From Candidatus Zixiibacteriota bacterium (lineage in GTDB: Bacteria; RBG-13-66-14; B26-G2; WVWN01), in contig JAUWLW010000054.1 of NCBI GenBank assembly GCA_030613505.1, forward strand, positions 1 through 17,274: DNA of 17,274 nucleotides, given 5' to 3'. The number at the start of each line of letters is the position of its first letter. Position 1 is the stretch's first letter. This document shows, in pieces, positions 2,350-14,562 of the stretch. The translations under genes and the position numbers were made by a program. The notes below the pieces were generated by a model. It was not told the origin of the DNA. It saw nothing but the letters and a program-made list of their open reading frames with translations, and ran no database searches.

Positions 2350-3039
2350 TTACAATACCTCAAATATATATTCCATACAGTAGTAGATACCGACGAGGAT
2401 AAAGACGACGCCCGTGACGCGGCGCGCCCACCACTCGAACTTTTGCAGCTTGTGGAACGCCGCGCCGAGCGAGCCGACGCCCAGGCCGATTATCACCGCA
2501 AAGACGAAGACCGGGAGCGCGGTCCCGACGCCGAAGACGCCGGGCAACAGTATCCGCGAGTCGTACTTCACCGCCAGCGATATGAGGCTGCCGAAGAAGA
2601 GCGCCGCCGATATCGGGCAGAACGACAGCGCGAAGATGACGCCTAACGCCAGCGCGCCGGCCAAACCCCACCCTTCGACCTTCTTGCCGAGCTTCTCGCC
2701 CACGCCCGGGCCGCCGCCGCCGAACTTTATAAGCTCGAGCAAGAAAAGGCCGACGACGATGAGGAGCGGCCCCAATACCTTATTCATATAGTCCTGGAGG
2801 AAGGTCGAGACGCGCGGGATGGATTGCAGGCCGGCGAGTATCACGACCGCCAGGCCGACGTACGCCACGGTCCGCCCGACGGTGTACAGGACGCCACCCA
2901 GCAACACCTGGCGCGGGCTGCCGAGTCGTTTGCCGATGTACGAGATTGCGGCGACGTTGGTCGCCATCGGGCACGGGCTTATAGCCATTAATATGCCGAA
3001 CCACAGCGCCGACGCCGCGCCTATTAAAAGGGGTCCCAT
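2350..3039 (-). CDS. CcdA/DsbD-like membrane protein resembling the ArsG family
   Basis: A 229-residue, almost wholly hydrophobic protein with about six membrane segments in two related halves. The first half carries SPCPMATNVAA (Cys23) and the second LSFCPISAALFFG (Cys141). This paired-cysteine pattern is that of the CcdA/DsbD transmembrane domain, which passes electrons from cytoplasmic thioredoxin to periplasmic thiol proteins. The nearest named family I recall with this neighbour order is ArsG, described as a permease for trivalent aromatic arsenicals. The start ATG directly abuts the TAA of the upstream gene, with GGGTGAG as ribosome binding site in that gene's end, so the two are tightly coupled. 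It is the last gene of the cassette, and no clear terminator follows before the hicBA promoter. Electron transfer, export or both are possible. Confidence 0.8.
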   Translation of the reverse strand: MGPLLIGAASALWFGILMAISPCPMATNVAAISYIGKRLGSPRQVLLGGVLYTVGRTVAYVGLAVVILAGLQSIPRVSTFLQDYMNKVLGPLLIVVGLFLLELIKFGGGGPGVGEKLGKKVEGWGLAGALALGVIFALSFCPISAALFFGSLISLAVKYDSRILLPGVFGVGTALPVFVFAVIIGLGVGSLGAAFHKLQKFEWWARRVTGVVFILVGIYYCMEYIFEVL

Positions 3040-3567
3040 TTACTCACCCGGTAAATATGCCCGGACTTCGTCTTGGATGTACTTAATAAAAAGCCCTTTA
3101 TCGCCGGTAAGCTGCCATACTTTCGTTAAGCTCTTCCAACGGGCCTCCTCGCCTTCGCGCAGCTCGGATACTATAACGGCCTTGGCGAAAAGGCCGTAGT
3201 CTTCATTGAAGTGGCGATTCTGGGGCAAGTCCGTATCGGTAGGCCTCCAGAGAACCGAACCTTCCGCGAGCTCCTTCGCGAAGCCCCGCTCGAGCGCCTC
3301 TTTGGTATATCTCTCTATCTTCAGGCACGTAACGCACCGCTTCCCGAAGTAGAAATAATAAGCTACGACCTGCCCGCCCAAAGCGGCGGTTTCTTCCTCC
3401 TCTTCCACGGCAGCCTCCGCGGTCGGTGCGGCAGCCGTCGACGGGGCCGCGTCGGCGGCGGCGCCTTCCGGCGCCCTCGCGTTTTTTACCTCCTTCACGA
3501 CGAGGTACGCGACGGCCACGGCGACGAAGGCCAGGATAACGACCGTCAATATCGTCTTAGGTTTCAT
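3040..3567 (-). CDS. Membrane-anchored thioredoxin-fold protein resembling the ArsF family
   Basis: A 175-residue protein. Residues 5-24 form one membrane segment, 30-64 an Ala/Pro/Glu-rich linker ending in EEEEE, and 66-175 a thioredoxin-like domain. The redox motif is RCVTC (Cys78, Cys81), followed by LKIERYTKEAL, RPTDTDLPQNRHFNEDY and a WK-containing helix. This layout matches the family annotated as nitrophenyl compound nitroreductase subunit ArsF, as I recall it. The likely topology is N-in with the redox domain outside the membrane, though flanking charges are positive on both sides. It overlaps the preceding thioredoxin-like gene by 4 nt (ATGA) and abuts the CcdA-like gene, its most likely electron donor. 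The natural substrate is not visible from sequence. Confidence 0.75.
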   Translation of the reverse strand: MKPKTILTVVILAFVAVAVAYLVVKEVKNARAPEGAAADAAPSTAAAPTAEAAVEEEEETAALGGQVVAYYFYFGKRCVTCLKIERYTKEALERGFAKELAEGSVLWRPTDTDLPQNRHFNEDYGLFAKAVIVSELREGEEARWKSLTKVWQLTGDKGLFIKYIQDEVRAYLPGE

Positions 3568-3800
3568 TCAGAGAGGATCTCCTTTATTTCGTCCTTGGAC
3601 GGCACCTTGCCGACGGCCTTAACGTCGCCGTCGACCGCCAGCGCCGGCGTCATCATAACGTTGAAGGCCATGATGGCCTCGATGTCGGTAACCTTCTCGA
3701 CCTCGCACTCCAGGCCGAGCTCTTTGGCCGCGGCCTCGGCGTTCTCCGCGAGCTTCTTGCACTTGGGACACCCGGTCCCCAATATCTGTATCCGCTTCAT
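3564..3800 (-). CDS. Small thioredoxin/glutaredoxin-like redox-active disulfide protein
   Basis: A 78-residue protein beginning MKRIQILGTGCPKCKK, with a CPKC redox motif at residues 11-14, and later the MMTPALAVDG segment holding the cis-proline expected opposite the active site. This is the compact redox-active disulfide family common next to DUF318 permeases in anaerobes and archaea. It has no signal peptide, so it should act in the cytoplasm, either as a thiol donor to the CcdA-like protein or as a metalloid-binding chaperone for the permease. GGAGG lies 5 nt before the ATG. It starts 9 nt after the permease stop and overlaps the next gene by 4 nt, so it sits in the middle of the operon. 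Confidence 0.85.
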   Translation of the reverse strand: MKRIQILGTGCPKCKKLAENAEAAAKELGLECEVEKVTDIEAIMAFNVMMTPALAVDGDVKAVGKVPSKDEIKEILSE

Positions 3801-3809
3801 CGGGACCTC

Positions 3810-5111
3810 CTATCCAAACAACGCGCCGTATATCAGGCCCGTAATAGTCGCCATTATAACCACCAACAAAATAAAAACAACCGTCTTCCTCGTACCGATG
3901 ACGCTCCTTATCACGAGCATGCTGGGCAGCGACAACGCCGGCCCGGCGAGGAGAAGCGCTAACGCCGGCCCCTTCCCCATTCCGCTGCCGATGAGGCCCT
4001 GAAGGATGGGGACTTCGGTCAACGTGGCGAAGTACATAAAGGCCCCCGCTATGGAAGCGAAGAAGTTGGCGCGGAGCGAGTTGCCGCCGACGGCCGCGCT
4101 CACCCACGACGACGGTATAAGGCCCTCTTGCCCGGGCCGCCCCAACAGCGCACCCGCGACGAGCACGCCCAAGAGCAGCAGCGGCAATATTTGCTTGGCG
4201 AAACCCCACGTGGCGTCGAACCAATCGCGGGCCTCGCCTTTGTCTGTGGCCGTTACGAGCGAGATGCCGACGGCGCCGGCGGCAAACGGGACCAGCGGCT
4301 CGCGCGGGAAGAAAGCGGCCAAAGCCGCCGTGGGCGCGGCGACTAACGCCACCTTCCACCACTTCACGCCGAACCAGATAACGAGCATGACGCCGAGGGC
4401 CAGAGCCGAGGCGGATGCCAACAACCATTTGAGAGAGTATACCGTAAACCAAATCCCCGCTTCCGCGGTCGGCTTGCCCCAATTGGCGAAGACGAGGACG
4501 CCGACCATAGCGCCGAAATAGAGTACGTTTTGCCACAAAGGCCGCGCCACCTCCGGCTCGGGCATCGCGGCCTGCGTTTCCGCCTTAGCGACCTCTTCCT
4601 TGCGAAAGAAGAAGTGCATGGCTAGGCCGATGACGACGCTGAAGACGACCGCCCCCACGGCGCGCGCCACGCCCATCTCCAGGCCGAGTATGCGTGCCGT
4701 AAGTACGATGGCGAGGACGTTGATGGCCGGCCCCGAGTAGAGGAACGCCGTCGCGGGCCCCAACCCCGCACCCATCTTATAAATACCGGCGAAGAGCGGC
4801 AGGACCGTACAGGAGCAAACGGCCAGGACCGTGCCGGAGACGGACGCGACGCCGTAGGCCAGGACCTTGTTGGCCCGGGGGCCGAGGTACTTCATAACCG
4901 AGGCCTGGCTAACGAAGACCGAGATGCCGCCGGCGATGAAGAACGCCGGGACCAGGCATAACAAGACGTGCTCGCGGGCGTACCACTTGACGAGGGCCAG
5001 CGCCTCGAATATGGACCTGTCGAAGCGCGGCACCCCGACCGGCAAATAAAAACAGGCCAGGAAGGCGACGACGATCGCCGCCAGCACCTTCCACTCTCGC
5101 TTCCAATCCAT
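3810..5111 (-). CDS. DUF318/ArsP-type permease (PF03773)
   Basis: A 433-residue polytopic membrane protein with roughly ten to twelve hydrophobic segments. Two internally repeated motifs, SGPAINVLAI (about 126-135) and AGPALSLPSML (about 389-399), mark the two pseudo-symmetric halves. A conserved CSCT motif (Cys99, Cys101) follows the fourth segment. A hydrophilic loop near 168-190 contains KEEVAKAETQ. Family members include ArsP, an exporter of trivalent organoarsenicals, and other heavy-metal or unassigned permeases. The gene lies 79 nt after the ArsR-type regulator and 9 nt before the thioredoxin-like gene. The start is ATG with AAAGGG upstream. The role is inferred to be export of an arsenic- or metal-thiol species; the exact substrate is unknown. 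Confidence 0.87.
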   Translation of the reverse strand: MDWKREWKVLAAIVVAFLACFYLPVGVPRFDRSIFEALALVKWYAREHVLLCLVPAFFIAGGISVFVSQASVMKYLGPRANKVLAYGVASVSGTVLAVCSCTVLPLFAGIYKMGAGLGPATAFLYSGPAINVLAIVLTARILGLEMGVARAVGAVVFSVVIGLAMHFFFRKEEVAKAETQAAMPEPEVARPLWQNVLYFGAMVGVLVFANWGKPTAEAGIWFTVYSLKWLLASASALALGVMLVIWFGVKWWKVALVAAPTAALAAFFPREPLVPFAAGAVGISLVTATDKGEARDWFDATWGFAKQILPLLLLGVLVAGALLGRPGQEGLIPSSWVSAAVGGNSLRANFFASIAGAFMYFATLTEVPILQGLIGSGMGKGPALALLLAGPALSLPSMLVIRSVIGTRKTVVFILLVVIMATITGLIYGALFG

Positions 5112-5128
5112 AAGGTTAATTTCCCTTT

Positions 5129-5188
5129 GCTATCGTATAGCTACGCGGCCGGCGGAACCGGCTGTCGGCTACGTTTAAGGCCGGTTCC
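5129..5188 (-). other. Intercistronic stem-loops between the regulator and permease genes
   Basis: Two inverted repeats lie in the 79-nt gap. A perfect 9-bp pair, GGAACCGGC (5154-5162) with GCCGGTTCC (5180-5188), begins 2 nt after the arsR-like stop codon. A smaller repeat, GCTAT/ATAGC around CGT, spans 5129-5141. Neither is followed by T residues, so a full terminator is unlikely. They could be an attenuator, an RNA-processing or stability element that sets the regulator-to-permease ratio, or a second operator. Confidence 0.4.
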
Positions 5189-5190
5189 AC

Positions 5191-5511
5191 CTACTCGACG
5201 TGGCCGAGGCTCTCCCGCGCGACTGATTTTATGACCGACTCGACGCACCCAAAAAAGCTAAGGACGCAGGGCATCCTTAGGTTGTAGTAAATCCGGGAAC
5301 CTCGCTTTTCGGAGGCTACGATGCCGGCGGCCTTTAGAACCGCTAAGTGCTTCGAGACTGTGGATACGTCGGCGCCTATCAAATCGGTCAATTCGCAGAC
5401 GCAACGCTCGCGGCTGGAAAGTTGGTCTACGACGAAAAGGCGCGTGGGGTGCGCCATCGCTTTGATGACCGCAGCCAAAGCTTCAAATCGCGCTTGCGTT
5501 TTAGGGTCCAT
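5191..5511 (-). CDS. ArsR/SmtB-family metalloid-responsive repressor
   Basis: A 106-residue winged-helix regulator. The N-terminal helix contains AMAHPTRLFVV; RCVCEL (Cys37, Cys39) matches the start of the arsenite site of ArsR; the recognition helix is DVSTVSKHLAVLKAAG (48-63); the wing is KRGSRIYYNL. The third cysteine of the E. coli ArsR site is Thr42 here. Two others appear near the C terminus in MPCVLSFFGCVE (Cys82, Cys89), so the sensor site may be built differently. Such repressors leave DNA when As(III), Sb(III) or a related thiophile binds. It is the first gene of the cassette, and its promoter contains an inverted repeat over the -10 box, which points to autoregulation of the whole operon. 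The inducer is inferred. Confidence 0.92.
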   Translation of the reverse strand: MDPKTQARFEALAAVIKAMAHPTRLFVVDQLSSRERCVCELTDLIGADVSTVSKHLAVLKAAGIVASEKRGSRIYYNLRMPCVLSFFGCVESVIKSVARESLGHVE

Positions 5512-5531
5512 ATAAAACCACCTGGATAATT

Positions 5532-5567
5532 ATTTGGCATTATAACCAAATCGCCAAACTAAGTCAA
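5532..5567 (-). promoter_or_regulatory. Promoter with overlapping operator for the ArsR-permease-redox cassette
   Basis: On the minus strand TTGACT (5562-5567), a 17-nt spacer and a perfect TATAAT (5539-5544) form a strong promoter. The inverted repeat ATTTGG (5532-5537) and CCAAAT (5546-5551), 8 nt apart, encloses the -10 box, so bound repressor would block RNA polymerase. An extra GCCAAA at 5553-5558 may be a further half-site. The predicted start near 5532 gives a leader of about 20 nt. Confidence 0.8.
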
Positions 5568-6585: not shown

Positions 6586-6600
6586 CCTATACCTCCTTAA

Positions 6601-6628
6601 GTCGCGGGAATCTCAGCGAACCCGCGGC
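6601..6628 (-). other. Stem-loop between rsmD and the SPFH gene
   Basis: CGCGGG (6603-6608) pairs with CCCGCG (6621-6626) around a 12-nt loop, ending 4 nt before the AAGGAGG ribosome binding site of the SPFH gene. There is no T-run, so it is not a terminator. It could stabilise a processed message or affect initiation of the SPFH gene. This rests on sequence complementarity alone. Confidence 0.3.
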
Positions 6629-6670
6629 TAGTTGGAACGCACCGAAAAATAAAGCGCGTTCGGCTCGAGC

Positions 6671-7261
6671 CTAAGATACTTTACCGCCAAAGCCGGCGGC
6701 GCGGTTCGAGCGCACTTTGCCGAAAAAAGATAGATTGTCATCACCCAACTGCCGCACGTCCAGTAAGGTAAGCGGCGCCGGCCCGGCGAAGCGTTCCTTT
6801 TTAAACGTCTTGGATATTCCCAACGAACCTTCGCCGAAGCCCGCCCACGTCGCCAACCTCTCGACGGCCCGAAACGCCAGGCCGCGGCCGTACGGCGGGT
6901 CCAAGAACACGACGTCGTAAGGAGTACTAGGTCGCGTCGTCTCGAAGTAGGCAAACACGTCCTCGCAATATGTGCGCGACGCGTCGGTCAAACCCAAAGA
7001 CCGTAAATTTTCCTCCAACGCGTCGACCAAGCCGGCGTCATTTTCGACGAACGTGGCCCGCGCCGCGCCCCGGCTCAGCGCCTCCACGCCGAAAACGCCC
7101 ACGCCGGCGAATAAATCGAGCACCGCGGCCTCCCGTACCGTTTCGCCGAGGTAATCGAACAACGACTGTTTTAGCCGACCGGCCAGCGGGCGGTAATGCT
7201 CCCCTCGCGGCGCCGCCAGCACCCGGCCCTTTAATAAACCACCGCCTACCCGGAGCGACAA
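6671..7261 (-). CDS. rsmD: 16S rRNA (guanine-966 N2)-methyltransferase RsmD
   Basis: A 196-residue Rossmann-fold methyltransferase. Visible landmarks are the RVGGGLLKGRVL start, the RP motif at 24-25, the S-adenosylmethionine-binding LDLFAGVGVFG (48-58), EALSRGA (60-66), and the catalytic DPPY (121-124). It should methylate G966 of 16S rRNA in the small ribosomal subunit. The start is TTG at 7259-7261: a GGTGG sits at the end of the preceding gene 9 nt before it, no ATG or GTG offers a better fit, and the resulting N terminus matches the family. It begins 6 nt after the phosphoesterase stop. The common partner coaD does not follow here. The C-terminal tail (about 180-196) is variable in this family. 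Confidence 0.9.
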   Translation of the reverse strand: MSLRVGGGLLKGRVLAAPRGEHYRPLAGRLKQSLFDYLGETVREAAVLDLFAGVGVFGVEALSRGAARATFVENDAGLVDALEENLRSLGLTDASRTYCEDVFAYFETTRPSTPYDVVFLDPPYGRGLAFRAVERLATWAGFGEGSLGISKTFKKERFAGPAPLTLLDVRQLGDDNLSFFGKVRSNRAAGFGGKVS

Positions 7262-8514: not shown

Positions 8515-8994
8515 CTACTTCCCCTTACCTCCCAACTTGCCATAGAGGTCGACCAACTCGAGCGTCGCGAGCGCGGCCTCTCTCCCTTTGTTCCCGGCCT
8601 TCGAACCCGCGCGCTCCACGGCCTGTTCCAACGTGTCCGTCGTCAAGACGCCGAAGACGACGGGTACCCGGGCCTCGAGCGCCACGGCGGCGACGCCTTT
8701 TGCCACTTCCGCGGCAATGTACTGGAAATGCGGGGTATCGCCGCGTATGACGGCGCCAAGGCATATTACGCCGTCGAACCCTCCGGCCTCGGCCAAACGC
8801 TTCGCTACCGTCGGGAGCTCGAACGACCCGGGGCATGAAACCACCGTTACGTCGTCCTCGGCTACCTCGTGACGTTTAAGCGTGTCGAGCGCGCCGTCCA
8901 AAAGACGCTTGGTTACAAACTCATTCGTTCGGCTGAGGGCAATTGCGAACTTCCTACCTCGGCCCGATATTATGCCTTCGACGACCTTTGCCAT
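8515..8994 (-). CDS. ribH: 6,7-dimethyl-8-ribityllumazine synthase
   Basis: A 159-residue enzyme that condenses the ribityl-pyrimidinedione from RibD's pathway with dihydroxybutanone phosphate to make lumazine, the penultimate riboflavin step. Landmarks are SCPGSFELP (53-61), LGAVIRGDTPHF (79-90) with catalytic His89, and GVLTTDTLEQAVERAG (115-130) with the phosphate-binding Arg128, then KAGNKGREAA. The length is normal, so an icosahedral or pentameric assembly is expected. GGAGG precedes the ATG by 7 nt. It follows ribBA by 84 nt and is 1 nt from nusB, whose ribosome binding site lies inside its last codons. Confidence 0.97.
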   Translation of the reverse strand: MAKVVEGIISGRGRKFAIALSRTNEFVTKRLLDGALDTLKRHEVAEDDVTVVSCPGSFELPTVAKRLAEAGGFDGVICLGAVIRGDTPHFQYIAAEVAKGVAAVALEARVPVVFGVLTTDTLEQAVERAGSKAGNKGREAALATLELVDLYGKLGGKGK

Positions 8995-9078
8995 TCCGGA
9001 ACCTCCGCCGTTTGTAAGTCGAAAACCTTCGAAAGCTCGCGTAATTAACGCCGTTCGATAAATCTAAAAAGCAGGCCC

Positions 9079-10344
9079 TTATTTACCGCGATTATCTTCC
9101 TTATCCGAATCCAGCTCGAGAATGTGGCCCATCTTGTCTTTCTTGGTTTTAAGGTAGTCGTAGTTACGTTCGTGCGGCTTCGCTTGGAGGGGAATCCTCT
9201 CGACTATTTTCAAGCCGTAGGCCTCCAGCCCCACCATCTTCGTCGGATTGTTAGTCATTAAACGGATGGTAGTCAGGCCGAGGTCGGCCAGGATCTGAGC
9301 GCCGATGCCGTAGTGGCGCTCGTCCGCTTTGTACCCCAAGAGGAGGTTGGCGTCCACGGTATCGACACCTTCGTCTTGTAAAATATAAGTCTTGATTTTA
9401 TTTAAAAGGCCGATGCCGCGGCCTTCCTGCCGCATATAAAGGAGTACTCCCTCGCTCTCGGCGGCTATTTTTTCCAGCGCCCGTTGGACCTGGTCGCCGC
9501 AGTCGCACCTCAGCGAATGGAAAACGTCGCCCGTGAGGCATTGCGAGTGGACCCGAACCAGAACGTTCTCTTTGCCTGCGACGTCGCCCATCACCAGCGC
9601 CAGGTGGTGTTCGTCGGGCGTGGTGAGCGAATCGTAAACGTGCATGGTAAATTCGCCGTATACCGTGGGCAGCGGCGCCGTAAGGATATTGCGGACGAGT
9701 TTCTCGTGACGACGCCGGTATTCGATGATGTCGCGGATGGTGACGATGCCGATGCCGTGCCGCCCCGCCACCTCGGCCAGCGCCGGCAGCCGCGCCATCG
9801 CGCCGTCCTCGTCCATTATCTCGCACAAAACGCCCACCGGCGAAAGGCCCGCAAGCCGCGCCATGTCCACGACGGCCTCGGTATGGCCGGCGCGCTCCAA
9901 CACGCCACCCGGCTTCGCGCGCAACGGGAAAACGTGGCCCGGGCGGGCGAGGTGCTGCGGCCTCGTCGCCGGGTCGGCAAGTATCTTCACGGTCGTCGCG
10001 CGGTCGGCGGCGGAAATGCCGGTGGTCGTACCCTCGACGGCATCTACGGAAACTGTGAACGGCGTGCCCATAAGGCCCGTATTCTCGGACGTCATGGGCG
10101 GCAAGCCGAGCTCGTTGGCGCGCTCCGCGGACATCGGCGCACAGATTAAACCTCGGCCGTGGGTCGCCATGAAATTTATCACGTCCGGCGTGATCGCTTC
10201 GGCAGCCGTTATAAAGTCGCCCTCGTTCTCGCGGTCCTCGTCGTCGGTGCAGATAAGCACGCCGCCGCGCTTGAATATCGCGATCGCCTCGTCAACAGCG
10301 AGAATCGGATTGCCGCGATCCCGTTTATCTTCTTCTGACTTCAT
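9079..10344 (-). CDS. ribBA: Bifunctional dihydroxybutanone phosphate synthase / GTP cyclohydrolase II
   Basis: A 421-residue fusion. The RibB half (about 13-212) makes 3,4-dihydroxy-2-butanone 4-phosphate from ribulose 5-phosphate and has DDEDRENEGDF (34-44), HVFPLRAKPGG and ERAGHTEAVVD (His154). The RibA half (about 213-410) opens GTP as the first step of riboflavin synthesis and has VRVHSQCLTGD with HSLRCDCGDQ, giving zinc ligands Cys269, Cys280 and Cys282, then RQEGRGIGL (305-313) and MTNNPTK. Both active sites look intact. It begins 13 nt after ribE; the ribosome binding site is weak, suggesting coupling. Together with ribD, ribE and ribH it completes the pathway to riboflavin, except the unassigned phosphatase step. 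Confidence 0.97.
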   Translation of the reverse strand: MKSEEDKRDRGNPILAVDEAIAIFKRGGVLICTDDEDRENEGDFITAAEAITPDVINFMATHGRGLICAPMSAERANELGLPPMTSENTGLMGTPFTVSVDAVEGTTTGISAADRATTVKILADPATRPQHLARPGHVFPLRAKPGGVLERAGHTEAVVDMARLAGLSPVGVLCEIMDEDGAMARLPALAEVAGRHGIGIVTIRDIIEYRRRHEKLVRNILTAPLPTVYGEFTMHVYDSLTTPDEHHLALVMGDVAGKENVLVRVHSQCLTGDVFHSLRCDCGDQVQRALEKIAAESEGVLLYMRQEGRGIGLLNKIKTYILQDEGVDTVDANLLLGYKADERHYGIGAQILADLGLTTIRLMTNNPTKMVGLEAYGLKIVERIPLQAKPHERNYDYLKTKKDKMGHILELDSDKEDNRGK

Positions 10345-10357
10345 ATACTCGGTCTTA

Positions 10358-10999
10358 CTAATCGCCGTAACCCAGCTCGGCCAACCGCTCGAGCGTCAGG
10401 CCGCGGCCCGAGCTCGAGCTCAAAAAACGCTCCACGTACTTCGCTATCAAGTCGACTTCCACGTTAATTCGGTCGCCCGGGCGCCTGTGCTTAAACGTTG
10501 TATTTTCGTACGTATAAGGGATAATCGCCGCGCCGAACGCGCCGTCGCCGACGCCCACAGCGGTTAGGCTTATCCCGGCGACGGCAACGGAACCTTTTTC
10601 CACGACGTAGCGGCTTATTTCAGGCGGAACCGCGAGCTTAAGCAAGTACCCGTCGCCCGACGGCGTCATCGCCGCAACCGCACCGACGCCGTCGACGTGC
10701 CCCTGGACGAGGTGGCCGCCGAGCCTGCCGCCGGCGGGCGTCGCCAACTCAAGGTTGACGGCCGCCCCGGCCCTAAGTTCGCCCAACGTCGTCGTCGTCG
10801 CCGTCTCCGCCGAGACGTCGGCTTCGAAGAAATCGGCGCCTACCTCGGCCGCGGTCAAACATACCCCCTCGACGGCGACGCTGTCGCCCGGGGAAAGCGC
10901 TCTGGCCGTTTCGCGGCCTTTGATTCTAATCCGCCCCCCGGCGGCGCTCACGGCGGCGCGCGCGACTTCGCCCACCTCTGATATTATACCGGTAAACAT
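10358..10999 (-). CDS. ribE: Riboflavin synthase alpha chain
   Basis: A 213-residue enzyme that dismutates two lumazines into riboflavin. Two tandem lumazine-binding barrels are visible: the first begins MFTGIISEVG and holds GVCLT (45-49); the second begins near GGHLVQGHVDG (94-104) and holds GISLT (142-146), followed by IIPYTYENTTF. A short C-terminal helix likely forms the trimer. The gene lies between ribD (28 nt upstream) and ribBA (13 nt downstream). The start ATG is followed by the invariant FTGI, so the start is certain even though the ribosome binding site (AAAGG, close to the ATG) is poor. It is called ribE here; the same gene is named ribC in some species. Confidence 0.97.
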   Translation of the reverse strand: MFTGIISEVGEVARAAVSAAGGRIRIKGRETARALSPGDSVAVEGVCLTAAEVGADFFEADVSAETATTTTLGELRAGAAVNLELATPAGGRLGGHLVQGHVDGVGAVAAMTPSGDGYLLKLAVPPEISRYVVEKGSVAVAGISLTAVGVGDGAFGAAIIPYTYENTTFKHRRPGDRINVEVDLIAKYVERFLSSSSGRGLTLERLAELGYGD

Positions 11000-11027
11000 C
11001 GGCCTTTTACAACTCGCCCCTCGCGTC

Positions 11028-12185
11028 TCAGCGAGTAATCCCGGTCACGCGCGGTACGCCGGCGAATAAGTCGTCCACGTTCGTTAAATACCCCTCGAGC
11101 ATCACGTCGTCGCCTAACGCACGGCGCTTTACCTCGACGAGGTTCTTAGCTTCTCCCGGACCCGCAACGCCCCGACCGCCCACCGGCGACTTCGCCCGGG
11201 CACCGCCGACTATCTTCGGCGCGACGAACGCCACGACGCGGTCCACAAAGCTCGCGTCGAAATAAGCGCCCAATAATCTTTCCCCGCCCTCGACGAGCAC
11301 GCTGGTAATCCCCCTCGCGGCGAGCTCGCGAAGCAAGTGGCCCAGCGAAACGCGGCCGCCGTCTTCTTCGCACATTATAATCTCTACGCCCAGCCGGGTC
11401 AACCGCGCTATGTTTCGCTCGCCGGCGCGCTCGGTGCAAGCCAACCAAATCGGCGGCCGGGGCGAATCTTCGAAGAGCCGCGCGCCCGCCGGGATAGCAG
11501 CGCGGGAAGAAATTACCAGCCGCACCGGCCCGTCCGAAACGTCGCGCCCGCGGAGGCGCACCGTCAACCGGGGGTCGTCGGCCCTCACGGTCCCGGCGCC
11601 GACGGCCACCGCGCCGTGTTCCCACCGAAGTCGGTGAGCGCGCCGGCGCGCGGCCGCTCCCGTTATCCACGCCGCTTCGCCCGTGCGCGTGGCGATCTTG
11701 CCGTCCAGCGAAGCCGCGAACTTAGCCGTAACCCAGGGCACGCCCGTCGTCACGAACTTCGCGAAATCCTCGACGAGATGCCGGCACTCGCGCTCGCGAA
11801 CGCCGACCTCCACCCGCAGCCCCTCTTTGGCCAAAACGGCGACGCCCTCGCCAGCGACGCGGGGATGGGGGTCGAGCGTACCTACGACAACCCTCCTCAC
11901 GCCGGCCCTAACAACCGCCGGCGCGCACGGCGGCGTCTTACCCTCGAAGGAGCACGGCTCGAGCGTCACGTAGAGCGTCGCACCCCGCGCGGCCTCCCCC
12001 GCCTCCTTCAACGCGACGACCTCGGCGTGGGGCGCGCCCGCGCGTTCGTGAAAACCTTTCCCCAAAACCCTGTCGCCCGCCGCCACTACGGCGCCGACCG
12101 CCGGGTTAGGCGCGGTTCTACCCTTACGTAAGCGGCCGAGCTTAACAGCCTCGGCCATCAATCGCTCGTCGCGCGTTGCTACCAA
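11028..12185 (-). CDS. ribD: Bifunctional riboflavin deaminase-reductase RibD
   Basis: A 385-residue two-domain enzyme for riboflavin steps 2 and 3. The N-terminal deaminase has TAPNPAVGAVV, the zinc residues in HAE (His53, Glu55) and LEPCSFEGKTPPC (Cys78, Cys87). The C-terminal reductase (from about residue 149) has VTAKFAASLDGKIA, GAGTVRADDPRLTVR and LVEGG (297-301). I favour the TTG at 12183-12185: it lies 16 nt after the penicillin-binding protein stop, GGCGGGG precedes it, and it gives a family-typical N terminus. An ATG at 12254 would overlap the previous gene by 53 nt and add an atypical tail; an ATG at 12158 would cut the first helix. It is the first riboflavin gene of the operon, and no leader large enough for an FMN riboswitch precedes it. 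Confidence 0.93.
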   Translation of the reverse strand: MVATRDERLMAEAVKLGRLRKGRTAPNPAVGAVVAAGDRVLGKGFHERAGAPHAEVVALKEAGEAARGATLYVTLEPCSFEGKTPPCAPAVVRAGVRRVVVGTLDPHPRVAGEGVAVLAKEGLRVEVGVRERECRHLVEDFAKFVTTGVPWVTAKFAASLDGKIATRTGEAAWITGAAARRRAHRLRWEHGAVAVGAGTVRADDPRLTVRLRGRDVSDGPVRLVISSRAAIPAGARLFEDSPRPPIWLACTERAGERNIARLTRLGVEIIMCEEDGGRVSLGHLLRELAARGITSVLVEGGERLLGAYFDASFVDRVVAFVAPKIVGGARAKSPVGGRGVAGPGEAKNLVEVKRRALGDDVMLEGYLTNVDDLFAGVPRVTGITR

Positions 12186-12201
12186 TTGGCTAGCCCCGCC
12201 G

Positions 12202-14562
12202 TTAAAAATCGGGTCGCGGCTCCTCGGCCTTCCCCCCTCCCGAAGCGGCCTCAACGTCTTTTAGGGCCCAGTCGGCCGGCTCGTGCATATCGCAAAATTT
12301 CGTAGGTACGGTGCCTCTTAAAAAAGACTCCGATATAACGCGGGTGCATTTACTCGTAGCCAGCAGCCCGGATTCCTCGCAGATGCGGGCGCCTGCTATG
12401 TCGGGGGAATTCTCGAACTTTGCGTCGCCGCGCTCGCCGAGGGCCTCGCTCATAAATTTCGACCATATAGGGACGGCGAACGTCTCGCCGGTCGCCGTGT
12501 GCCCCAGCGTTTCGTGGTCGTCGCGCCCCACCCAAACGCCCGCGACCAAACCCTCCGGTACGAAACCTATGAACCAGGTGTCCGCCGCGCCGTCGGTCGT
12601 CCCGGTCTTCCCGGCGCCGCGCCCCTTGAAGCCGTAACGCCTTGCCAGCGACGCGGTCCCCCGGTCGATGACGCCCTCCAACAAATTTACCATGATGGTG
12701 CAGGTATCCTCCCCCACCACCACCTCGCGGCGGACGGGAAACTCCTCCAGCGCGTTTCCGTAGCGGTCCTCGACCCGCGTTATGACGCGCGGCTCGACGT
12801 GTACGCCCATATTGGCGAGCGTGGCGAACCCGTCCACCATATCCATCAGCGTTACGTCGCTGGAGCCCAGCGCCAGCGAGTATACCGGGACCAGTTCGCT
12901 CTTTACGCCCATGCGGTGAGCGTAGTCTACTACGGTCTCGATGCCCACCTCGTCTATGATGCGGGCCGCGACGATATTTATGGATTGCTCGATGGCGCGC
13001 CGTATGGTCATGGGGCCCGACGTCGAACGACTATAATTGTGCGGCTGCCACACTACGCCGTCGGCCTCGATCCGAAACGGCACATCCAGCACAACGTCCG
13101 CGGGGGTGAAGCCGTTGTCGATGGCCGCCGTGTACAGGAACGCCTTGAAGGCCGACCCCGGCTGCCGCTTCGCCTGGACCGAACGGTTGAACTTCGACTC
13201 GTCGAAGTCGGCGCCGCCGATCATCGCGAGGACGTCGCCGGTCGGGGCGTCCATGACCAACATCGAACATTGTAAGAATGGCTCTTCCTCGTAGGCCAGC
13301 ATCACTTTCTTCTTCTTGGTGTATACGCCCACCACCTTGGCGGATATCTCCTGGCCCACTTTGACGACGTCGGACGGCTCGAACGGGAAAGACCACACCG
13401 CCGGCGAGATGTCCATGGTGCCGGTTATGCCGCCGCCGAGGTCGCATATCGCGACCGCTTTGGTCATATCAGTTACCTTGACGTACCGGACCTGGCCCGT
13501 CTCCAACTTCTTGAACGTCAAGTTAGCGTCGTAACGGGCGAACCTTTTGCCGTGGTTCTTCTCAAGGCGCGTCAAGCCCCAGGCCATCGTCTTGTCCGCG
13601 ATCCGTTGGTATTTCAGGTCCAACGTCGTGTAAACGCGCAAGCCCGCCCGGAATACCTGTTCCGAGCCGTACCGCCGAACCAAAATCCGACGCACGTACT
13701 CCGTGAAGTACGGCGCCCGGTCCGGGTCGCGCTTCACCGGCGCGACGGTTACGGGTGTAGCCCGGGCCTTTTCGTAGCGTCCTCGGTCGACATAGCCCAG
13801 CTCGTACATTTTGTCCAGTACGGTGTTGCGCCGTTTAAGGGCCTCGTCCGGGTCGACGTACGGCGAAAATCTGCCCGGCGACCTCGGCAACCCCACCAGC
13901 GTAGCGCATTCGGCTAGAGTTAAATCCTCGACGTGTTTGTCGAAATATACGCGCGCCGCGGCCTCGGCGCCGTACGCGTTGTGGCCGTAATAAATCTGGT
14001 TCAAGTAGAAATATAAAATTTCGTCCTTGGTATAAGCCTCTTCGATCTTGCCGGCGAGCAGGACTTCCCGGATCTTCCGTTCCCACGTCCGCTCCATCGT
14101 GAGGAACAAGTTGCGGGCCAGCTGTTGCGTGATGGTCGAACCGCCCTGGACGATGCGTCCGGCTTTGACGTTGGCCCAAGCCGCCCGCAATATCCCGATA
14201 TAGTCGACGCCGTGGTGTTTGTAGAACCGTTCATCTTCGATGGCTAGCGACCCGTTAATGAGGTCTTGCGGAAACGCGTTGTAGGGCTTGAGGTAACGCC
14301 TTTCTACCTGGAACGACGTTATTAAGCCGCCGTTGCGATCGTATATCCTGGTAGGCAGTGCCGGCTCGTACGTCTCCAATCCCGATATGGGCGGCAACCC
14401 TCGCGAGAGCACCGTCATAAGGCCGAACCCGACGCCTACGGCGACGAGCCCGCTCCAATAAAAGGCCCAAAACAACGCTCGCGTTACGCGCGAGACGCGG
14501 GGTTTCTTCTTGACGCGTCGCGTGCGCCGGCGATTCAATTCCGGGAAATATTCTTTTACCAT
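12202..14562 (-). CDS. Class A penicillin-binding protein (PBP1A-type transglycosylase/transpeptidase)
   Basis: A 786-residue peptidoglycan synthase. A basic cytoplasmic tail (11-28) precedes one membrane anchor (about 30-52). The GT51 glycosyltransferase follows with EDERFYKHHGVD (109-120, catalytic Glu), GGSTITQQLARNLFL and RKIREVLLA. A region near 395-425 (VGQEISAKVVGVYTKKKKV) resembles an S1/OB-type insert found in many PBP1A proteins. The penicillin-binding transpeptidase has Ser470-x-x-Lys473 in PGSAFK, SIN (527-529) and KTGT (652-655). The C terminus is Gly/Glu/Pro-rich. Both activities appear intact. GGAG lies 5 nt before the ATG. It is the first gene after a clear promoter and runs into ribD 16 nt downstream, so it probably leads the riboflavin operon. 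Confidence 0.95.
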   Translation of the reverse strand: MVKEYFPELNRRRTRRVKKKPRVSRVTRALFWAFYWSGLVAVGVGFGLMTVLSRGLPPISGLETYEPALPTRIYDRNGGLITSFQVERRYLKPYNAFPQDLINGSLAIEDERFYKHHGVDYIGILRAAWANVKAGRIVQGGSTITQQLARNLFLTMERTWERKIREVLLAGKIEEAYTKDEILYFYLNQIYYGHNAYGAEAAARVYFDKHVEDLTLAECATLVGLPRSPGRFSPYVDPDEALKRRNTVLDKMYELGYVDRGRYEKARATPVTVAPVKRDPDRAPYFTEYVRRILVRRYGSEQVFRAGLRVYTTLDLKYQRIADKTMAWGLTRLEKNHGKRFARYDANLTFKKLETGQVRYVKVTDMTKAVAICDLGGGITGTMDISPAVWSFPFEPSDVVKVGQEISAKVVGVYTKKKKVMLAYEEEPFLQCSMLVMDAPTGDVLAMIGGADFDESKFNRSVQAKRQPGSAFKAFLYTAAIDNGFTPADVVLDVPFRIEADGVVWQPHNYSRSTSGPMTIRRAIEQSINIVAARIIDEVGIETVVDYAHRMGVKSELVPVYSLALGSSDVTLMDMVDGFATLANMGVHVEPRVITRVEDRYGNALEEFPVRREVVVGEDTCTIMVNLLEGVIDRGTASLARRYGFKGRGAGKTGTTDGAADTWFIGFVPEGLVAGVWVGRDDHETLGHTATGETFAVPIWSKFMSEALGERGDAKFENSPDIAGARICEESGLLATSKCTRVISESFLRGTVPTKFCDMHEPADWALKDVEAASGGGKAEEPRPDF

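Follow-up and report, generated by a model that had tools for sequence, protein, structure and literature searches.

What do a metalloregulator, an export permease, two thioredoxin-like proteins and a CcdA-type membrane protein do together in one short operon? The question is raised by five genes in a 17,274-nucleotide stretch of DNA (the window) from an uncultured Coatesbacteria species. Judged by its sequence, the five-gene set is an arsenic-type resistance operon of this species, and its elements are known: ArsR, an ArsP-type permease and the named ArsE-ArsF-ArsG trio, a set that has already been described. Here, we describe the organization and regulation of the operon, propose how its products may act together, and weigh this proposal against three other readings.

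Organization of the operon and closest known systems

The five genes, arsR, an ArsP-type permease gene, arsE, arsF and arsG, occupy positions 2350-5511 on the minus strand behind one promoter. The intergenic gaps, from arsR to arsG in order, are 79, 9, -4 and 0 nt, and arsE-arsF-arsG are contiguous in that order (3800-2350, minus strand). The features are:

5529..5567, minus strand: promoter (11/12 match) with an operator-like inverted repeat, the position of which is conserved within the genus
5191..5511, minus strand: arsR, ArsR/SmtB metalloregulator, 106 aa, Cys37/39/82/89 (NF033788, PF01022)
3810..5111, minus strand: ArsP-type permease (ArsP_1/DUF318), 433 aa, CSC motif with Cys99 and Cys101 (PF03773)
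3564..3800, minus strand: arsE, small thioredoxin-like protein lacking an export signal, 78 aa, CPKC with Cys11/14 (TIGR00412)
3040..3567, minus strand: arsF, membrane-anchored thioredoxin-fold protein, 175 aa, RCVTC with Cys78/81 (NF040494; fold model)
2350..3039, minus strand: arsG, CcdA-type polytopic membrane protein, 229 aa, Cys23 and Cys141 (NF040495, PF13386 DsbD_2)
3020..3480, minus strand: stretch with a separate history, covering the greater part of arsF and the beginning of arsG (identity to the related genome G006; AU tests)

A preliminary description of this DNA had listed five genes with gaps of -4 to 79 nt, one promoter and a cysteine pair in every product, all of which is confirmed, positions included. 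Its view of a coherent, arsenic-type set with a permease is also supported: the curated models for ArsR, ArsE, ArsF and ArsG are passed and Pfam ArsP_1 is matched. The combination is not, as had been suggested, poorly described, since ArsEFG has already been named in print and is covered by curated family models, and CcdA and thioredoxins were reported in ars operons in 2010.

The organism of the 2019 ArsEFG study is reportedly Shewanella putrefaciens. In the window, ArsE, ArsF and ArsG each exceed their curated cut-off, and their genes follow one another as E-F-G. In contrast to the published ArsEFG (Chen, Zhang and Rosen 2019, Environ Sci Technol 53:6182), this set begins with ArsR and an ArsP-type permease, its host belongs to Coatesbacteria, its mechanism is read here as a transmembrane thiol relay, and close relatives have a probable selenocysteine (Sec) form of ArsF. 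The same kinds of proteins as in the window, namely CcdA, thioredoxin and redox-active disulfide protein 2, were found in ars operons by Castillo and Saier (2010, PMC2963123), who raised transmembrane electron flow through CcdA and later judged it less likely. Their system is tied to ArsC (arsC in 7/8 cases), whereas the window's operon lacks arsC and has ArsF, ArsG and ArsP.

Promoter, operator and ArsR

By pattern, the promoter reads TTGACT-17 nt-TATAAT at 5567-5539 (TTGACT at 5567, TATAAT ending at 5539; 11/12 matches), and its -10 box is overlapped by the inverted repeat ATTTGG-N8-CCAAAT at 5532-5551. The repeat is intact and in the same position in 3/3 other genomes of the genus, in two of which the sequence upstream of arsR is just 52-56% identical to that of the window; it is absent from the 165 other loci examined, including the acr3 operon of the same genome. 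A single match with up to two mismatches arises in 64/200 shuffles and is thus not rare by chance, and we credit the repeat as operator-like because its position is conserved, not because the match is rare. ArsR itself scores 86.9 bits with NF033788 (family cut-off 55) and matches PF01022. All four ArsR proteins of the genus have Cys37, Cys82 and Cys89, which would make up a putative three-cysteine As(III) site, and two of the four also have Cys39; in a wider set, Cys37 alone is conserved. A thiophilic trivalent metalloid, most likely organic or inorganic arsenic, would release ArsR from the operator over the -10 box.

A proposed outward thiol relay

We propose, with a probability of roughly 0.6, that the five genes form an ArsR-repressed metalloid resistance operon in which export by the ArsP-type permease is combined with an outward thiol relay from ArsE via ArsG to ArsF. 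In this model, electrons would come from the cytoplasmic ArsE and enter ArsG, a carrier of the CcdA type whose two cysteines lie within the membrane. ArsG would in turn reduce ArsF, which has a thioredoxin fold and is anchored at the outer side of the membrane. The target that ArsF then reduces would be extracytoplasmic, either the metalloid compound or a thiol site that this compound has oxidised or blocked.

The three proteins are assigned to their families by clear scores. ArsE reaches 114.7 bits with TIGR00412 (cut-off 62), its best solved relative is MtH895 (1ilo), and its cysteine pair (11/14) is invariant in 15 proteins. ArsF reaches 98.3 bits with the subfamily model NF040494 (cut-off 60), its predicted structure has a thioredoxin fold (pLDDT 85), and the RCxxC motif is invariant in 17 proteins when two Sec forms are counted as Cys. 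The N-termini of ArsF relatives bear signal peptides, anchors or lipoboxes, and because of these the CxxC domain is placed outside, the side of the membrane on which the relay needs the CVTC domain. ArsG reaches 284.3 bits with the equivalog model NF040495 (cut-off 200) and 46.4 bits with PF13386 DsbD_2 (gathering score 24.9), and its Cys23 and Cys141 are invariant in 15 proteins. Divergent full-length CcdA-type partners also keep both intramembrane cysteines, in SPC and GPC. The ArsG profile matches the CcdA structure 5vkv (E 0.00038), which is also the sole Foldseek match of probability 1.00 (E 0.016, TM 0.48) to an ArsG model of modest quality (pLDDT 73.5); for the same model, the VIA-align Z scores are 6.2 (5vkv) and 8.0 (NqrE), values at which common arrangements occur. 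ArsG resembles CcdA/DsbD-type carriers in its sequence profile, its two conserved cysteines and the company of an outer thioredoxin, and differs from them in that its second cysteine lies in FCP rather than GPC, in belonging to a separate NCBIfam family and in its ars operon context.

In the curated databases, ArsF is named a nitroreductase subunit and ArsG an efflux permease, apparently on the basis of one study. The 2019 ArsEFG work is cited as showing that ArsG is an efflux transporter and that ArsE and ArsF confer organoarsenical resistance, which speaks against the relay. Taken at their word, the curated names, which come with model cut-offs that the window's proteins reach, describe an operon in which ArsE and ArsF jointly carry out nitro reduction of aromatic arsenicals, with ArsG exporting the amino product. 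We consider this unlikely: ArsF is extracytoplasmic by its signals, ArsG resembles CcdA and keeps the CcdA cysteines, the operon already has an ArsP-type permease of its own, and the set occurs in two phyla although nitroaromatic arsenicals are mainly synthetic. The relay is favoured over the names 'nitroreductase' and 'efflux permease' because the CcdA-type cysteines are kept, CcdA is the nearest relative of ArsG with a solved structure and ArsF bears export signals; the outward thiol relay with export put forward in the preliminary description is plausible. The families, the gene linkage, the invariant cysteines, the ArsF export signals and, in two sister species, a probable Sec at the nucleophile of ArsF can be read from the sequences, and from these we infer the direction of electron flow, the contacts between partners and the substrate. 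If the relay is true, the names of ArsF and ArsG mislead, and the real reaction, which becomes directly testable, is extracytoplasmic thiol or selenol chemistry acting on a metalloid.

A probable selenocysteine form of ArsF

In two sister species (G004 and G006), an in-frame TGA in arsF takes the exact place of the first catalytic cysteine, giving the active-site motifs RRUTSC and KRULSC, compared with RCVTC in the window. ArsF of these two species, and not that of the window, is probably a selenoprotein with Sec in place of Cys78, because the TGA falls at the catalytic cysteine in genomes that encode SelA, SelB, SelD and tRNA-Sec; SelD itself has a TGA. A pseudogene or sequencing error is rejected, since the site is common to two genomes, the frame is open and under selection (dN/dS about 0.21 downstream of the TGA) and the Sec machinery is present. 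Both Sec forms have a hairpin, 22 nt after the TGA, whose loop starts with G. As a SECIS element it is compatible with this reading and is rejected as strong proof, since the usual rule, which it fits, is also satisfied at 19% of background codon positions and its energy is unexceptional, synonymous shuffles yielding similar values. Rfam gives no SECIS in loci L019 or L043 and no match of any kind in the window, and no Sec form was seen in Bacteroidota, where none of the ArsF matches listed has an internal stop.

ArsF is absent from a 2026 catalogue of 119 families, and its Sec form, new in this work, would extend the prokaryotic selenoproteome by one family and mark Cys78 as the attacking residue. 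A wider proposal, which we hold tentatively and at a little under even odds, is that ArsG is an electron carrier and not a pump, that ArsF is a new selenoprotein family, that reducing power crosses the membrane to an outer selenol or thiol catalyst, and that the Sec and Cys versions are swapped among close relatives by replacement of one gene.

A separate history of arsF

The window encodes a Cys-form ArsF that is far from the Sec-form ArsF of its nearest relative, G006, while the rest of the operon is about 90% identical between the two. Identity drops to about 55-65% across 3020..3480, with flanks at about 90%; arsF has a history of its own, apart from the rest of the operon. A point mutation is rejected as the source of the Sec/Cys difference between the window and this relative, because almost the whole of arsF past the anchor differs. 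The tree of ArsG alone does not decide between clades (AU tests, p 0.067 and 0.175).

The ArsP-type permease

The permease reaches 245.5 bits with PF03773 (ArsP_1; gathering score 32.3), its Cys99 and Cys101 are invariant in 10 proteins, and it may export a trivalent species via this CSC site. It shares the Pfam family and the CxC motif with the ArsP permeases for trivalent organoarsenicals but, at 433 aa, has an extra central segment, also found in the permease of locus L042 and missing from permeases of 315-349 aa. The metal efflux permeases SO_0444 and SaoE are related as well, and for SO_0444 a UxC Sec form has been listed (PMC13188914), whereas the probable Sec of the window's relatives sits in ArsF instead of the permease. 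The matches to the SO_0444 (Cu/Zn) and SaoE models, at 106.6 bits far under the equivalog cut-offs of 300 and 325, might hint that this operon type serves another thiophilic metal (Sb, Hg, Cu or an organometal) and that its arsenic linkage elsewhere reflects kinship only; acr3, arsC, arsM, arsA or arsD adjoin the set in many relatives, and we regard this reading as very improbable.

Distribution and gene neighbourhood

The gene set is linked across two phyla, so that the synteny expected in the preliminary description extends far beyond close relatives. At 52 Bacteroidota arsF loci, ArsE is encoded in 49/52, ArsP in 45/52, ArsG or a CcdA-type protein in 48/52 and ArsR in 42/52, together with acr3 (24/52), arsC (21/52) and arsM (19/52). 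Half of these loci also encode a second exported thioredoxin, which, like the folds of ArsF and ArsG, would suit a CcdA/ResA-like thiol-repair module, recruited to keep thiols of the envelope in the reduced state during metalloid stress, with ArsF acting on protein disulfides only and having no metalloid substrate. We give this reading somewhat less weight still than the one based on the curated names, since the constant linkage to ArsR, ArsP and other ars genes suggests a metalloid-specific role and a Sec nucleophile suggests a demanding substrate. The proposed relay is not bound to ArsP only, as L039 and L091, both Bacteroidota loci that carry arsA, arsD and acr3, lack the ArsP gene.

A scan of genome contigs with a single ArsG query yielded three loci, phyla such as Desulfobacterota lying outside the sample. 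Within the limits used, plasmids gave no relative of ArsF or ArsG, and viral contigs gave one arsF-arsG fragment (L068). The genome of the window also has a separate arsR-thioredoxin-acr3 operon, which probably handles inorganic arsenite; the five-gene operon therefore probably serves another arsenic species, for example methylated or aromatic arsenicals.

Operon make-up and control region

The window is part of a draft genome, that of a species of Candidatus Coatesbacteria with the Coatesbacteria chromosome CP070633 as a same-genus relative. Its five-gene ars operon occupies 5511-2350 of the minus strand, with intergenic distances of 79, 9, -4 and 0 nt, and by profile matches encodes:

5191-5511, minus, ArsR/SmtB regulator
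3810-5111, minus, ArsP_1 permease
3564-3800, minus, ArsE-type thioredoxin (TIGR00412)
3040-3567, minus, ArsF (NF040494)
2350-3039, minus, ArsG (NF040495)

All five products score well above their own curated NCBIfam or Pfam cut-offs. The promoter agrees with the consensus at 11 of 12 bases. Its -10 box sits within the inverted repeat ATTTGG-N8-CCAAAT, which is unbroken at the same position in all three other same-genus genomes and was found at none of 165 other loci compared. Gene calls, family scores, promoter and conserved repeat thus confirm the five-gene cassette and operator-like repeat of the preliminary description, and the operon is very probably of the arsenic resistance type. ArsEFG was named in 2019 and is reported to confer roxarsone and nitarsone resistance; the window cassette alone is a further instance of this known system. 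What goes beyond it, a probable selenocysteine (Sec) form of ArsF together with the replacement of arsF, is seen in sister species rather than in the window.

The window's genome has a second ars operon, arsR-thioredoxin-acr3 (L093, 4145-5954), at which the operator repeat was not found. Because it stands elsewhere and without this repeat, a division of labour is suggested, with arsenite handled by the acr3 operon and a different arsenical by the five-gene operon.

A proposed outward thiol relay

Cytoplasmic ArsE, an intramembrane cysteine-pair carrier (ArsG) and an outer thioredoxin (ArsF) would be the components of a CcdA-type relay, and from their presence we infer that electrons may flow through ArsE, ArsG and ArsF. 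We give such an outward relay a probability of roughly 60%, as against the database annotation of ArsF as a nitroreductase and ArsG as an efflux pump.

In alignments, ArsE Cys11/14, ArsG Cys23/Cys141, permease Cys99/Cys101 and ArsF Arg77/Cys78/Cys81 are invariant. Full-length CcdA-type partners, divergent ones included, have the first-helix cysteine after SP (AP in one) and the second at FCP or GPC. Searched against solved structures, the ArsG profile has one meaningful relative, CcdA 5vkv (E 0.00038), and the same chain is the sole Foldseek match of probability 1.00 to the ArsG model. Among the top VIA-align rows are NqrE/RnfA, with a Z of about 8, and CcdA, with a Z of 6.2, both electron-transfer membrane proteins; Z values of this size are not decisive, and the model is modest (pLDDT 73.5). 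The ArsF model (pLDDT 85) has a thioredoxin fold, with a best VIA-align Z of 11.3 and an rmsd of 2.0 across 87 residues. Read by eye, its N-terminus in the window looks like an uncleaved anchor, and many Bacteroidota proteins carry a signal peptide there and several a lipobox, so the CxxC domain is predicted to lie on the outer side of the membrane.

Probable selenocysteine in ArsF

Two of the four genomes in the genus, G004 (which includes record WVWN01000008) and G006, the window's nearest relative, have an in-frame TGA in arsF precisely at the Cys78 codon, giving the motifs RRUTSC and KRULSC; the corresponding motif is RCVTC in the window's ArsF and RCATC in that of G005. Past the TGA, the reading frame runs on to its normal end and shows selection (dN 0.125, dS 0.585). 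All four genomes encode tRNA-Sec, SelB, SelA and SelD, and SelD has its own in-frame TGA, probably Sec, in each of the 13 Coatesbacteria genomes that yielded a SelD (L123-L128 among the loci), from which it follows that TGA is read as Sec in this lineage. A SECIS-type hairpin lies 22 nt past the TGA in both arsF genes, a weak test that 19% of background positions also pass. We consider Sec in both proteins highly likely. In thioredoxin-fold selenoproteins, Sec at the first CxxC position is the attacking nucleophile, and ArsF position 78 would therefore be marked as such.

A 2026 inventory of prokaryotic selenoproteins (119 families and subfamilies; PMC13188914) names neither ArsF nor NF040494 nor a nitroreductase among the entries in its text, and our literature search found no paper with ArsF and selenocysteine together. 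Sec near these families is not strange, as both the SO_0444 permease (UxC) and Thioredoxin_3 proteins have Sec forms in the same inventory (PMC13188914).

Separate history of arsF

Over the permease gene, arsE and arsG, the window and G006 share 87-92% identity; downstream the figure is 94%, and over arsF it drops to 66% (about 55-65% between 3480 and 3020); arsR is lower too, at 74.5%. The ArsF tree rejects a window-G006 clade (AU p 0.0016) and the permease tree a G004-G006 clade (AU p 0.000014). This drop and the agreeing trees indicate that arsF, minus its anchor, was replaced in one of these lineages. Between G006 and G004, arsF is 85.6% identical, like arsE and arsG, and because of this equal divergence the sequences suggest that the Sec form is older within that pair and that the window lineage acquired a Cys form.

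Linkage across genomes

Among 14 genomes of the phylum Coatesbacteria, ArsF occurs in five, all with ArsG and Acr3 above cut-off; Acr3 reaches its cut-off in just one further genome, which, in this small sample, suggests an Acr3-ArsF link. Bacteroidota genomes were reached via one Bacteroidota-type relative (partly overlapping samples of 296, 395 and 391). Profiles built from sequences of the present analysis assigned ArsE at 49, ArsP at 45 and ArsR at 42 of 52 ArsF loci there, an ArsG-type protein at 44 and a weaker CcdA-type protein at four more, a second exported thioredoxin at 26, and acr3, arsC and arsM at 24, 21 and 19. Gene orders vary (ArsR-ArsE-ArsF-ArsG-ArsP, ArsP-ArsE-ArsF-ArsG or ArsP-ArsF-ArsE-Trx-CcdA), a variety that gives the association more weight than a single inherited block would have. 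Synteny confined to close relatives, which the preliminary description regarded as fatal to its proposal, is thus not what these 52 loci show.

Some Bacteroidota loci (e.g. L040, L138, L143 and L164) have a second architecture, in which ArsF and ArsE are joined by an exported thioredoxin, with a canonical CcdA (SPC...GPC) replacing the ArsG type. At L094 (3455-6310; G008, a Coatesbacteria genome of a different family), in a stretch partly of N, thioredoxin, ArsP and ArsR adjoin a weak ArsG relative without ArsF. The IMG/VR contig L068 (2-936) has the end of arsF and a complete arsG at its edge, then ParB-like and terminase-like phage genes, and appears to be a provirus carrying, or adjoining, this operon.

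Neighbouring genes

Three further features of the window are:

8515-12254, minus, riboflavin genes (RibD, riboflavin synthase, RibBA, lumazine-synthase-like ORF) with nusB
558-1691, minus, ethylbenzene-dehydrogenase-type haem-binding protein with a CxxxCH motif (GCMVACH)
1800-2227, minus, HicB-HicA toxin-antitoxin pair immediately downstream of arsG

No FMN riboswitch scored above the Rfam threshold within the window. L019 and L020 encode close homologues of the haem-binding protein in the vicinity of the operon. The Hic pair has a perfect TTGACA-17-TATAAT promoter (2271-2243); a similar pair apparently follows arsG in G006 (L043, 485-841), not in L019 or L020, and at the Bacteroidota locus L092 arsP and arsE are separated by a HicBA-like pair (6589-7001).
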